From: Treponema sp.
GTDB lineage: Bacteria > Spirochaetota > Spirochaetia > Treponematales > Breznakiellaceae
Assembly (NCBI GenBank): GCA_031256035.1
Contig: JAIRRJ010000067.1
Span: 1 to 64,000, forward strand
Direction: 5' to 3'
Length of the DNA: 64,000 nt
The notes under the pieces are model-generated. The model saw nothing but the letters and a program-made list of their open reading frames with translations, was not told where the DNA came from and did no database searches. Both the position numbers and the translations under genes were made by a program. Shown here piece by piece: positions 8,950-15,819 of this stretch; position 1 is the stretch's first letter; each line of letters starts with the position of its first letter.

Positions 8950-9831
8950 TCAACCTAGTTTCCCGATCATTTCGGGGGTAACGGTGGCGATGCCGGAGGC
9001 GCGGCCCATGCGGGCGAGTGCCAGGGCGTCGTTGACTAATGAGCGCCATGCGCCGCGGGAGCGTTTGGCGAGTGCTTCGGCGGTTTCGAGATCGATTTCG
9101 ATGCCGCAGGCGAGGGCGTAGTAGGCGGCGATGTCTACGGCGCCGACTGAATCGTAGAGGACGACGGGACGGCGTATGCGGGAGCGGAGCCGGGGGACGC
9201 GGTCAATTTTGCTTTTGAGGGCTTCTTCGCCGGCGAGGAGCACCGGCACCTTGCAGCGCTCATTGATACCCCGTATCAATTCCAGGAAGGCGACCGGCAT
9301 TTTGTCAGCCTCATCAATAATGATGAGCCGGCGGCGGTTGTCGCAATGTTCGTGGATAAAATTAAGGCAGTTGCCAAAGGTGATCGGGCGGACATTGGCG
9401 AGGGCTTCGCAGATGTCCCGCAGGAGCTGGACGCAAGTAGATTTTTCGATGAATAGCACATAACATGCGTCCTCGTGGGTTTCGGCGTACCAGCGTGCTG
9501 TGTGGGTTTTTCCCCGCTCGGCGGTTCCGATGACCATGCCCAGGGATGAGCTTTGCGAACCTTCAGGATCAGAGAGGTCGTCGGCGAGGGAATTAAACGC
9601 GGCGACAGAGCGGGTCGGTATGACCACGTCCGTATCGACCGTGAACTCGTCGGGTACAGTTTTGGTGTATCCCTTCTCTTTGAGAAGCGCGATATATTCT
9701 TCTTCCTTTTGCTCCCAGGCAGGGTAGGTCTGGGAGCATATTTTTGAAACTGTGCTTTTGTCGCACCCGAAAATTTTGGCGGCTTTGCCGAGGGACAGCC
9801 GGTTGGCTGTCAGGATTGTCCGTAAACTCAT
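8950..9831 (-). CDS. MuB-like AAA ATPase (transposition target protein), TnpB
   Basis: 293 residues. An N-terminal helix-turn-helix (residues 10-35, SLGKAAKIFGCDKSTVSKIC) precedes an ATPase core with Walker A GTAERGKT (102-109) and Walker B IIIDEADK (about 170-177). Family knowledge: MuB-type ATPases bind target DNA, activate the transposase and give target immunity. The gene overlaps tnpA by four bases (9828-9831). It appears intact, unlike tnpA. Confidence 0.92.
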   Translation of the reverse strand: MSLRTILTANRLSLGKAAKIFGCDKSTVSKICSQTYPAWEQKEEEYIALLKEKGYTKTVPDEFTVDTDVVIPTRSVAAFNSLADDLSDPEGSQSSSLGMVIGTAERGKTHTARWYAETHEDACYVLFIEKSTCVQLLRDICEALANVRPITFGNCLNFIHEHCDNRRRLIIIDEADKMPVAFLELIRGINERCKVPVLLAGEEALKSKIDRVPRLRSRIRRPVVLYDSVGAVDIAAYYALACGIEIDLETAEALAKRSRGAWRSLVNDALALARMGRASGIATVTPEMIGKLG

Positions 9832-10961
9832 GCTAATACTCCTTTTGGTTTGTTTAGTCTGAATTGGCTGGCGAAGTAGGCTTCTTCCTCGTCATCCATT
9901 CCTTCTTCGTATTCCGCCATGAACGCAAGGTCGGCGGCGGAAATCTTTTGGTTATTGCCCAGCGCTATGCGCAATGATTCGTAGCGGTCGCGGGGCGTAA
10001 GGTAAACCAGCTTTGACCGTTCGCGGATGTTCGGCTCGACGGTGATTTTTGCGGCGATGGCGGCGCTGAATTCTTCAGGCGTCATTGCCGGGCTTTCCGG
10101 CGCAGGGAGGCTTGAGGTCTCATTGCGCGTGGTGGGAAGGTTCGCCGCGGCGGCTTTCGCTTCGCGTAACTCGCGGAATTTGTCCGGGTCAAAGAGCATT
10201 TGCGCGCCGCTTGTCATGGTGTTGTAGGCTCCGGTTACCGCTTTCATGTTTCCGCGCTTCTGCTCTATCGCTGCGGACGTGGCTTTTTCGTCAAGCATCG
10301 GGATGGGCGTTACCGGCGTGAGGGGTATTGCCTCATTGGTGCGCGGATCGATTGCCCAGATGCCGTACGGAAGGCGGGTGCGCATGTCCAGCCAGAGGTA
10401 GCACTCCGGCCTGAAATAGACGCCGTTCTCGTCTGTTACCCAGAAGTCGAAGCGGTGCTGATCGCCGACTACGATTTGGAAGGGGCGCAGGCTCGACAGG
10501 TCGCGGGCGATGTAGAACAGGTTGTCCAGGGCGCGGCTGCCGCCTTTGACATAGAGTTTGAGCATCGGGTGGATTGCTTCCCGCGCGTGGACGTACGCCG
10601 ATTGTTCGGAGCCGATCTTCCAGCCGTTTTGCGCGGCCATGAGCGCGGTCTGTTTATAGGCGTTGCGCACCGTACATCGCCCTGCTTCACGGGTTACTTT
10701 GAGGAAAAACATTTTGAAGAAATTGAGCGCTTCGTTATCCCATGCCACAAGCGGCCGCATAGCGGTTTGTTTCGGCTGATAGCCGTTGGTGTCGATGTAG
10801 CCGATATAACGCTTGACCGATGAAACCGATACGCCGTGTTTGCGCGACAGGTTTTCGTACGCCATGTTTAGCGGCTGCAGCGCGTTGCGGCATTTCCAGT
10901 CATGGTGCACGGCGGCCATTTTGGACAGCTTTGAGCCGGACGCGAAGAGGGTGGCGTTCAT
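9828..10961 (-). CDS. MuA-like transposase TnpA with internal catalytic-core deletion
   Basis: 377 residues against about 600-700 in the family. The N-terminal DNA-binding part is present, as is the start of the RNase-H-like core with the first catalytic Asp (VVGDQHRFDFWV, Asp167) and LWLDMRTRLPYGI. At about residues 200-206 the sequence jumps in frame to AIDPRTNEAIPLTPV, which corresponds to the beta-barrel/C-terminal region of family members. The segment carrying the second Asp (usually TDNG) and the catalytic Glu is missing, so the protein should be unable to cut or join DNA. The C-terminal part is otherwise in order and overlaps tnpB. A DNA-binding role may persist. Confidence 0.85.
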   Translation of the reverse strand: MNATLFASGSKLSKMAAVHHDWKCRNALQPLNMAYENLSRKHGVSVSSVKRYIGYIDTNGYQPKQTAMRPLVAWDNEALNFFKMFFLKVTREAGRCTVRNAYKQTALMAAQNGWKIGSEQSAYVHAREAIHPMLKLYVKGGSRALDNLFYIARDLSSLRPFQIVVGDQHRFDFWVTDENGVYFRPECYLWLDMRTRLPYGIWAIDPRTNEAIPLTPVTPIPMLDEKATSAAIEQKRGNMKAVTGAYNTMTSGAQMLFDPDKFRELREAKAAAANLPTTRNETSSLPAPESPAMTPEEFSAAIAAKITVEPNIRERSKLVYLTPRDRYESLRIALGNNQKISAADLAFMAEYEEGMDDEEEAYFASQFRLNKPKGVLA

Positions 10962-13290: not shown

Positions 13291-13453
13291 TTTGTTTTCT
13301 CCTTTTTTCACATTCAGGTTTACAAATACCTCCGCGTTTTATGCAGTCGAAGCAAGGAGCATCATTATTCTGTTGATTGCTTAACTGGCTGATAACGCAC
13401 AGCGCCCATTCTTTCAAACGCTCTGTAAAACGCAGTATGCTTTCCTCACTCAT
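13271..13453 (-). CDS. Small Cys-motif prophage protein, paralogue of the next gene upstream
   Basis: 60 residues. Its C-terminal part APCFDCIKRGGICKPECE is nearly identical to that of the gene at 13450-13800, and the preceding helices align (RLKEWALCVISQL with RLKKRAQLLIGWI). The two ORFs therefore arose by local duplication, which supports both as translated on this strand. The Cys motif (C-x2-C-x5-C) may bind metal. Function unknown. Confidence 0.65.
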   Translation of the reverse strand: MSEESILRFTERLKEWALCVISQLSNQQNNDAPCFDCIKRGGICKPECEKRRKQNEHNQR

Positions 13454-13800
13454 GCCTTCCTCCTTCTTTCGCGTTCAGGTTGGCAAATGCCTCCGCGTTT
13501 TATACAATCAAAGCAAGGAGAATTTTTATGCCGCCGATTATTAATCCAACCGATCAAAAGTTGTGCCCGTTTTTTCAAACGGTTTGCAAAAAGCAAGCGT
13601 GCGCCCTTTTCCTTGAGGGGGACAGGGCTTGCGCTATTACCGTAACCGCCATCTTTACCGGGAACATTCTCTACTACACCGAACGCCGCGACTGATTCAG
13701 GGCAGCTCCGGCAGGTTCCTCCTTCAATGTCAAAAGGGCATATTCCCTGCGACCGGGTTCCGTAGCCTTGCTGGCAAGTAGAAGGTTTTTCTTTATCCAT
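13450..13800 (-). CDS. Small Cys-motif prophage protein, possible fusion
   Basis: 116 residues. The N-terminal part has CPFDIEGGTCRSCPESVAAF; the C-terminal 45 residues are a paralogue of the gene at 13271-13453 (SPCFDCIKRGGICQPE). A Gly/Pro-rich linker joins the halves, so this may be two small proteins fused. On the opposite strand (13528-13695) an ORF with a good ribosome site and its own CPFF...C...CALF...CAI pattern overlaps it; I favour this strand because of the paralogy and operon continuity. Confidence 0.55.
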   Translation of the reverse strand: MDKEKPSTCQQGYGTRSQGICPFDIEGGTCRSCPESVAAFGVVENVPGKDGGYGNSASPVPLKEKGARLLFANRLKKRAQLLIGWINNRRHKNSPCFDCIKRGGICQPERERRRKA

Positions 13801-14218
13801 GTAACCCCTCCGCTTTTTCTTTCGCGAGCTGTCTCAATTTCGCCGCCATATCCCTGTCGCGGGCGATGGCTCTCTTCATTGCCCTCCGCTCCCACGTTTG
13901 ATACATTTCCCGCCGCGCTTCCTCCCGCACCGCATCGACCGGCTTGCCCTGCACTTCGCTGCGGGCCTCCAGCACAACCTCGTTCCAGTCCGCCTTGCCG
14001 AGTATCCGCGCAATCTCCGCTTCGATGCGCGCGGATCGGCGGCGGCCTGAGATGACGTTTGCAATGATTTGGTTTGACACCCCTAAACGTTCCTGAATAC
14101 GGACAAAACTGTATCTTTTTCTTTTCAGGCGGTATTGGATGGAAAGACCCTCATCATAATTGGGCCTAAGACGTACTGCCATATCCTTGCGGACTGGCGG
14201 TAATTTTGTTAAAGTCAA
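13793..14218 (-). CDS. Ner-like early regulator, first gene of the early operon
   Basis: 141 residues if the TTG at 14218 is used; it has AGGAGG seven bases upstream, better than the internal ATG 14182. A helix-turn-helix lies at about residues 34-70 (FVRIQERLGVSNQIIANVISGRRRSARIEAEIARILGK), similar to Ner/Nlp-type proteins. The C-terminal half is charged and helical. In Mu, Ner turns down both early and repressor promoters; position as first gene of the leftward operon, divergent from the repressor, supports the same job. Confidence 0.72.
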   Translation of the reverse strand: MTLTKLPPVRKDMAVRLRPNYDEGLSIQYRLKRKRYSFVRIQERLGVSNQIIANVISGRRRSARIEAEIARILGKADWNEVVLEARSEVQGKPVDAVREEARREMYQTWERRAMKRAIARDRDMAAKLRQLAKEKAEGLHG

Positions 14219-14404
14219 AGTATGCCTCCTTCAGTGGTGGTTAGAGAGGGATGTCAATCGGCCAAGATAGGGCATCTCTCTCTTTATCATTTTTGGCTAA
14301 GTTGTATTTCCAACTTGCCGATAATTCGATTAACGACCAGAAATATCGAACATGTCAAGTGGAAAATTCGATATTTCTCAAATATTTTTTTTGGGGGAAA
14401 ATTT
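14219..14404. promoter_or_regulatory. Immunity control region between Ner-like gene and repressor
   Basis: 186 bp between divergent starts. It holds a perfect 12-bp inverted repeat, AGAAATATCGAA (14339-14350) and TTCGATATTTCT (14367-14378); on the minus strand a TTGACA (14358-14353) lies in the space between the arms, followed 18 bp later by GTTAAT, a plausible leftward early promoter. At 14299-14316 is AAGTTGTATTTCCAACTT, whose 14-bp core recurs twice inside the repressor gene in reverse orientation. These are candidate operators for the repressor and Ner. Confidence 0.7.
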
Positions 14405-15154
14405 ATGGATTGGGCTGACAAGATACGATGTATCGAAGTAGAAATGGGAATAGAAAACGATAGGGGAAAGCTTGCCAGCCTTTTAGGTGTCAGACCTGGT
14501 ATTATTTCAGATATAAAGAAAGGAAATTCAAAAAACCCAGGTTCAAACATTACCTTGCTTTTGATTAACAAGCTAGGAGTGAACCCCAAATGGCTAGAAG
14601 GGGAAAATCAGCCCATTTTCTTAAACAAAAAAAGGTTGGAAATACAACCTAATGAAGAAAAAATTTTGCATGAAAAGGTTGGAAATACAACCTCAAAAGG
14701 CCACGGCGGCATACCCCTTGTTTTTGAAGGAGACAAAGAATTTGAGGGCGGGATTATTATTCCCGTGCTGGGGGATAACCCAGTGTCCGCCGGAAATGGG
14801 GCGGGCATTGGCGATGAGGAAATACCCACGCGATTCATTCACGCCCCAAAAGAATTGGCAAAATACCTTCACCTTATCAGCCTGCCGGTCAGGGGCGACA
14901 GTATGGACCCCACCCTGCATGACGGCGACATGGTTGTCTGCGATGGGAGCGGTTGGGACGGCGATGGGATTTACGTCATAAAAACGGATGAAGAAACCTT
15001 TGTAAAAAGGGTGCAATATACCTCGGCAGGGTATCGAATCGTGAGCGATAACCGGATGTACGAAAGCTACACCGAGGATGTTGAAAAAATCGCCGTTGTG
15101 GGCAAAGTGCGAGCGGCGGTTGTAATGATGCCAGGAAGGCGAGGAGGAGTGTGA
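14405..15154 (+). CDS. Prophage repressor with LexA-type (S24) autocleavage domain
   Basis: 249 residues from ATG 14405, after GGGGGA. N-terminal helix-turn-helix at about residues 15-70 (KLASLLGVRPGIISDIKKG...LGVNPKWLEG). The C-terminal S24 domain has Ser166 (RGDSMDPTL) and Lys201 (FVKRV), the catalytic dyad, and a likely cleavage bond Ala129-Gly130 (PVSAGNGAG). Family knowledge: such repressors hold lysogeny and self-cleave on RecA activation after DNA damage. The linker region contains two copies of an 18-bp palindrome that also occurs in the control region. Its end overlaps the next gene (TGATG). Confidence 0.9.
   Translation: MDWADKIRCIEVEMGIENDRGKLASLLGVRPGIISDIKKGNSKNPGSNITLLLINKLGVNPKWLEGENQPIFLNKKRLEIQPNEEKILHEKVGNTTSKGHGGIPLVFEGDKEFEGGIIIPVLGDNPVSAGNGAGIGDEEIPTRFIHAPKELAKYLHLISLPVRGDSMDPTLHDGDMVVCDGSGWDGDGIYVIKTDEETFVKRVQYTSAGYRIVSDNRMYESYTEDVEKIAVVGKVRAAVVMMPGRRGGV
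14633..14650. promoter_or_regulatory. Candidate intragenic operator, copy 2
   Basis: AGGTTGGAAATACAACCT, a 6-bp inverted repeat (AGGTTG/CAACCT). Core GTTGGAAATACAAC is identical to the third copy and to the reverse complement of 14301-14314. It codes R-L-E-I-Q here. Confidence 0.6.
14676..14693. promoter_or_regulatory. Candidate intragenic operator, copy 3
   Basis: Second intragenic copy of AGGTTGGAAATACAACCT, 43 bp after the first and in a different reading frame (V-G-N-T-T), so its conservation is at the DNA rather than the protein level. Confidence 0.6.
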
Positions 15155-15819
15155 TGAGCAGATTTGATGATGGTAATTTTCATCTTCAAAGGGCAAGGCA
15201 ATCCGAAAAAACAGGCGATTTTCTTGCAACTCGTATGAACTATACAAAATGCGTAGAATGTTTTAGGCAGGCTGAAGCGACGACAGAACACGAGGAAGCA
15301 ACCAAAGAATATGAAGCATTTGTAAGTCGCGATCCTATTTTCAAAAAACTGTTTATTGCCCTCAACGCGGGAATAAAAGAAAATCCGGGGATTCTCCAGT
15401 CAGAAATCACAGGCAAATTTGAGGCAATGAATTGGGGGCAATTATACAACTATGACCGCCCGATAGCAAAAGACGATGTATATTACGCCCTCTATTTTGC
15501 TGACAAATTCGGGTACATAACCAGAAATAAAAAGGGGCGCTCTTATGAATTAATTTCAAACGGCGATCCGGTAGATTTAATAAACGAAATAGCAAAAACA
15601 TCTGAATATATTTCTGTTGAAAGCAGCAAACCAGTTATACAAGATTCCCCTGACAGGGTTACGTATGTAAGGGATACAGTAACTCTAAGAATAACCGCGG
15701 AGGATATTCAACAGGCAAGGCAAGAAAAAGTGAAATCTGACAATAGGCGCATGATGATTATTTCTCTTGTTGTAATCGGAATAGTGCTAATTATATGTTT
15801 GAAGGTATGCGGCATCTAA
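15154..15819 (+). CDS. Membrane-anchored protein co-transcribed with the repressor
   Basis: 221 residues from ATG 15154, which overlaps the repressor stop (TGATG) and has GAGGAGGAG upstream. The N-terminal third is helical and TPR-like (FHLQRARQSEKTGDFLATRMNYTKCVECF). The middle resembles a winged helix (LQSEITGKFEAMNWGQLYNY...DKFGYITRNKKGRSYELI). A single C-terminal TM segment follows (MMIISLVVIGIVLIICLKV), giving a tail-anchored cytoplasmic protein. Unknown family. Lower GC than the surrounding late genes. Co-expression with the repressor makes a lysogeny-time role such as immunity or exclusion possible. Confidence 0.75.
   Translation: MSRFDDGNFHLQRARQSEKTGDFLATRMNYTKCVECFRQAEATTEHEEATKEYEAFVSRDPIFKKLFIALNAGIKENPGILQSEITGKFEAMNWGQLYNYDRPIAKDDVYYALYFADKFGYITRNKKGRSYELISNGDPVDLINEIAKTSEYISVESSKPVIQDSPDRVTYVRDTVTLRITAEDIQQARQEKVKSDNRRMMIISLVVIGIVLIICLKVCGI

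Follow-up and report, generated by a model that had tools for sequence, protein, structure and literature searches.

Dyads inside the repressor gene of Mu-like Treponema prophages as candidate operators of a Ner-like regulator

Introduction

In phage lambda, the repressors CI and Cro bind the same operators. Phage Mu has a known Ner site between its divergent regulatory genes; Mu Ner lowers early transcription, and the transposition enhancer of this phage overlaps its operators. The operator of phage phi105 is GACGGAAATACAAG. For transposable phages more generally, Ner is described as shutting off transcription of the repressor in a study on phage Fc02 (PMC9936078), and in the lac system LacI roadblocks lacI by using auxiliary operators (PMC3711431). 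Here we describe a switch region in which dyads of one type lie both between the divergent genes and within the repressor coding sequence.

Results

The window, a 64,000-nucleotide stretch of a Treponema sp. genome, carries a Mu-like prophage with a MuA-type transposase, MuB, Gam, and head and tail genes. Judging from named relatives, whose isolates are deduced to come from termites, the host is probably a termite-gut Treponema, and the phages described here are a Mu-like family of such bacteria. The transposase gene (9828-10961, minus strand; 377 aa) is incomplete and, because about 265 residues found in relatives are missing internally and in frame, the window prophage is probably incapable of transposition, unless the gap is an assembly fault. 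The ner-like gene (13793-14218, minus strand) is the first of the early operon and is divergent from the repressor gene (14405-15154, plus strand), whose product matched PF00717 (4e-15) and phrog_4 (6e-36) and is made of an HTH domain (HTH_19, residues 22-64), a linker and a peptidase domain (Peptidase_S24, residues 127-235). The gene directly after the repressor (15151-15819, plus strand) codes for a protein with a C-terminal hydrophobic stretch, and similar genes occupy this position in the related loci L201 and L012. Two small neighbouring open reading frames share an 83-nt repeat (13296-13378 and 13457-13539, 80% identical) and a cysteine-rich C-terminal stretch (CFDCIKRGGIC).

Profile searches with nine members of the ner-like family gave weak matches to the Ner-type profile HTH_35 in five (best E 0.003) and matches to the "transcriptional repressor" profiles phrog_1468/769 in six (best 1e-6). 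The modelled structure of the protein has a lambda-type HTH (pLDDT 92.6), which speaks for the fold only and not for the family. Residues 38-45 of the model form the recognition helix, and residues 83-129 a long C-terminal helix that could join dimers. VIA-align gave a Z of 8.1 to EnrR (rmsd 2.4, 62 aligned) and of 6.6-7.5 to other lambda-type HTH proteins, and the best Foldseek match had an E of 0.018; there was no PDB Ner entry among the matches listed in these structure searches, and tblastn against annotated phages returned no match to the protein.

The 14-bp palindrome GTTGGAAATACAAC, which an earlier sequence-only reading of this DNA had placed in the control region and twice within the repressor gene, was found as exact copies at 14301-14314 (minus strand), 14635-14648 (plus) and 14678-14691 (plus). 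No others were present in the window or in the 3,122,661-bp genome, where matches to RRGTTG-N6-CAACYY were likewise restricted to these three places; the motif is thus not the genome-wide repeat that would have divorced it from the prophage. Each copy belongs to an 18-bp dyad whose two perfect arms, 6 bp each, enclose a spacer of equal length. The intergenic dyad O1 (14299-14316, AAGTTG-TATTTC-CAACTT) begins at about +6 of the predicted early transcript, whereas O2 (14633-14650, AGGTTG-GAAATA-CAACCT) and the identical O3 (14676-14693) lie at about repressor residues 77-97, in the linker between HTH_19 and Peptidase_S24. The O1 arms differ from those of O2 and O3 by a symmetric change, both arms being altered together. 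O3 is 43 bp, or about four helical turns, downstream of O2, and the two are identical across 21 bp (14630-14650 and 14673-14693), so that the longer identical palindromes of the earlier reading were confirmed, as were the linker location and the translation of the two copies in different frames (RLEIQ and VGNTT). The DNA between O2 and O3 (14651-14675, about AAAATTTTRCATGAAA, coding for the peptide KILHEK) is kept among several phages with differing operators, namely L026, L029, L030 and L033.

Related switch regions were gathered by searches with the repressor and with the ner-like protein, giving 18 distinct ner-repressor loci whose ner is of the same type as in the window; a 19th, L201, was found independently via its transposase. 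One intergenic dyad and two dyads in the repressor linker were present in 18 of 18 loci and also in L201, mostly of the form ARGNNN-6-NNNCYT, and the arms differed between phages: AAGCCG in L026, AAGCCC in L030, AAGGCA in L033 and L034, AAGCAA in L051 and L091, AAGTCA in L050 and AGGCTA/G in L029. L201 has the window's arms, with AAG in O1 and AGG in O2 and O3. The linker pair is spaced by 42, 43, 45 or 47 bp in the main set and by 44 bp in L201, which places 18 of the 19 loci within 42-47 bp, the exception being L028 (32 bp); the distance from O1 to O2 varies from 297 to 448 bp, with no fixed helical phase. Within a phage the arm distance between O1 and the linker sites was 0.69, against 2.40 between phages (permutation p 5e-5), the O2 and O3 of three loci with weak sites (L025, L028 and L031) having been chosen by similarity to O1.

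The repressor genes of the 18 loci contain 32 O1-like sites, compared with 6.7 expected from synonymous-codon shuffles (300 per locus), and therefore neither chance nor protein constraint accounts for the sites. This bears out the earlier contention that the protein could not explain the intragenic copies, and their operator-like character is supported; the trait is conserved in the related loci. A peptide repeat is not the general cause, because a 43-bp spacing puts the two copies in different frames and a 45-bp spacing in the same frame. In L025 the linker contains a further pair of dyads, spaced by 43 bp (positions 652 and 695 of the repressor-oriented upstream stretch), whose AAGCCG arms mismatch that phage's O1 (AAGCAA) and which is perhaps a relic of a specificity change. 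In L059, a dyad pair 44 bp apart lies between the genes, and the repressor gene, a shorter one, ends with a second pair at 45 bp.

Among 57 distant ner loci, pairs with exact arms were found in three, spaced 43-44 bp and located outside the repressor coding region wherever the genes could be placed, and none in the control stretch; the other 54 had no such pair. Apart from L201, more distant Mu-like phages had no exact-arm pair near 43 bp. As far as these sequences go, the intragenic arrangement is established for the window's ner branch only.

A predicted early promoter, Pe (14329-14358, minus strand), is made of TTGACA (14358-14353), an 18-nt spacer and GTTAAT (14334-14329), with a start near 14322. 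Pe has a strong match in all 18 loci, and in 17 of them 3-6 nt separate the predicted start from O1, which extends from about +6 to about +24 on the early transcript. Over Pe lies an inverted pair, AGAAATATCGAA...TTCGATATTTCT (14339-14378), which we propose as operators of the repressor.

Covariation of the sites with the two regulators was examined by Mantel tests over 17-18 related loci, whose kinship was not corrected for. The arm sequence follows the recognition helix of Ner (r 0.427, p 0.0001, and p 0.0005 with permutation restricted to repressor types) more closely than it follows the DNA-binding domain of the repressor, for which r was 0.154 with the N-terminal domain (p 0.046) and 0.219 with the recognition helix (p 0.012); once L201 is included, the repressor too gives a weak correlation. 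The linker sites alone track the Ner helix (r 0.404, p 0.0001) despite their position beyond the repressor HTH, on its far side from ner. Ner and repressor separate only when the comparison is confined to the HTH region and recognition helix; whole proteins leave them together (r 0.16 vs 0.15). The best-correlated Ner column falls within the modelled recognition helix, although as a single column it is not significant after family-wise correction (p 0.07), whereas in the repressor one column, which is not part of the recognition helix, is (p 0.03). By eye, a Ner lysine before a conserved valine accompanies CC arms (5 loci) and an arginine GCA arms (2 loci). The early-promoter spacer, in contrast, tracks the repressor N-terminal domain (r 0.558, p 0.0002) and not the Ner HTH (r 0.107, p 0.11). 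The two sets of sites thus covary oppositely, which is not the pattern of a shared operator of the CI/Cro type; sites of the repressor itself are more likely to be those over Pe, and the binder of O1-O3 is probably a protein other than the repressor.

Upstream of O1 on the plus strand, and in the same order in the 18 loci, a promoter-like site in the start of ner (14187-14215, TTGCGG-17-TAAAGT; weak here and stronger in relatives) is followed after about 75 nt by a terminator-like RNA hairpin with a T-rich tail (approximately 14243-14295), which lies past the ner ribosome site and stops just short of O1. The 75-nt stretch holds the antisense of that ribosome site (CCTCC). Ten of the 12 hairpin pairs show changes on both sides across the 18 loci, and the hairpin matched no Rfam family. 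From O1 to the repressor gene, the related loci yielded no conserved promoter on the plus strand.

Discussion

On balance we consider it probable that O1-O3 are operators of the Cro-like Ner, with O2 and O3 serving as intragenic auxiliaries that shut off the repressor gene by a roadblock or a loop. The sites recur with conserved spacing and with arms that match within a phage, and they track Ner better than the repressor; from this we infer that Ner dimers would bind the three 18-bp dyads. Bound at O1, just past the Pe start, Ner would autorepress the early operon; with the predicted start 3-6 nt away in 17 of 18 loci, it should do so by stopping promoter clearance, and it would also stop transcripts that come from upstream into the repressor gene. 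Inside that gene, O2 and O3 would form a roadblock to transcription, to which contact between the Ner proteins on the two sites, about four helical turns apart, and a loop of about 330-380 bp to O1 would probably add strength. Looping or roadblock over about 330-390 bp, with Ner as the binder, appears the likeliest mechanism, and the resulting shut-off of the repressor gene would lock in lytic growth.

The sequence-only reading had ascribed the looping or roadblock to autoregulation by the repressor. Such a role fits sites that flank and lie within the repressor gene, and the arms do correlate weakly with the repressor recognition helix, but we judge it unlikely: the correlation is weaker than that of Ner, whose signal survives permutation within repressor type; near-identical repressor helices (GVRPGIISDIKK in the window and GVRSGIISDIKS in L051) go with different arms (AAGTTG in the window and L201, AAGCAA in L051); and it is the early-promoter sequence that tracks the repressor. 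All of the evidence on the binding side would serve equally if Ner bound the intragenic pair for another end, such as keeping Ner near O1 and so tuning autorepression of the early operon, and Mu Ner too lowers early transcription. This is a minor possibility in our estimation, control of the repressor being the simplest reading of a pair located inside the repressor gene in all loci.

We give still less weight to a transposition enhancer bound by the transposase, like the internal activation sequence of Mu. The Mu enhancer overlaps the operators of that phage and lies in the corresponding genome region, but here the arms track Ner and the N-terminal, enhancer-binding part of the transposase appears to be absent, its phrog_310 match extending only from profile position 125 onward and intact relatives beginning at the same place. 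Each dyad, being a short inverted repeat, might instead form an RNA hairpin in the repressor and early transcripts, and a covarying hairpin does lie just before O1. We regard this as very improbable, since independent hairpins would not need arms common to the three sites of a phage and A-C mismatches in several sites break the RNA stem. The T-tract of O2 occurs on the minus strand only and is not kept in relatives, and O2 was rejected as a minus-strand terminator on that account. A dispersed repeat or neutral duplication, finally, would explain the identical 21-bp copies, yet it is scarcely credible when nothing similar occurs elsewhere in the genome and unrelated arm sequences occupy the same places in relatives.

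With the promoter-like site located where ner begins, transcripts of the repressor gene may need to cross the hairpin, O1, O2 and O3. The promoter-hairpin unit is possibly an antisense RNA or an attenuated repressor leader. We suggest, tentatively and with more doubt than conviction, a two-tier switch: the lytic regulator would have private operators, partly in the repressor gene and apart from those of the repressor, and a short structured RNA from the promoter antisense to the ner start would either silence ner translation or serve as an attenuated leader of the repressor transcript.

If the proposal is true, the lytic regulator of this lysis-lysogeny switch would act inside the sequence coding for its rival, at sites whose place and spacing are conserved and whose recognition sequence varies between phages; the 19 phages, with their paired Ner helices and operators, offer a ready specificity code to test. 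No comparable arrangement was found in the open literature, most subscription journals being outside that coverage. The main operator's recognition sequence recurs inside a coding region, as with lac O2. The lac system, with its main operator and auxiliaries O1, O2 and O3, one of them in coding sequence about 400 bp away, also resembles the present locus in its roadblock, though there the LacI tetramer acts on its own gene and lacZ (PMC3711431), whereas the binder proposed here would act on the gene of its rival through a fixed pair of sites. The B3-like transposable phage Fc02 has divergent repc and ner genes, a repressor transcript that begins antisense to the ner side and a Ner described as switching repc off, and the parts of that account considered here show no intragenic Ner sites (PMC9936078). 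As in lambda, two opposing HTH repressors face each other across divergent promoters, but their two sets of sites appear separate in these phages. A further likeness is to the transposable phages Mu and D108, with a repressor gene divergent from ner and a Ner that acts as lytic-side repressor of Pe and of repressor transcription, from which the present phages differ in the two extra sites inside the repressor gene and in the long C-terminal helix added to the ner-like protein.
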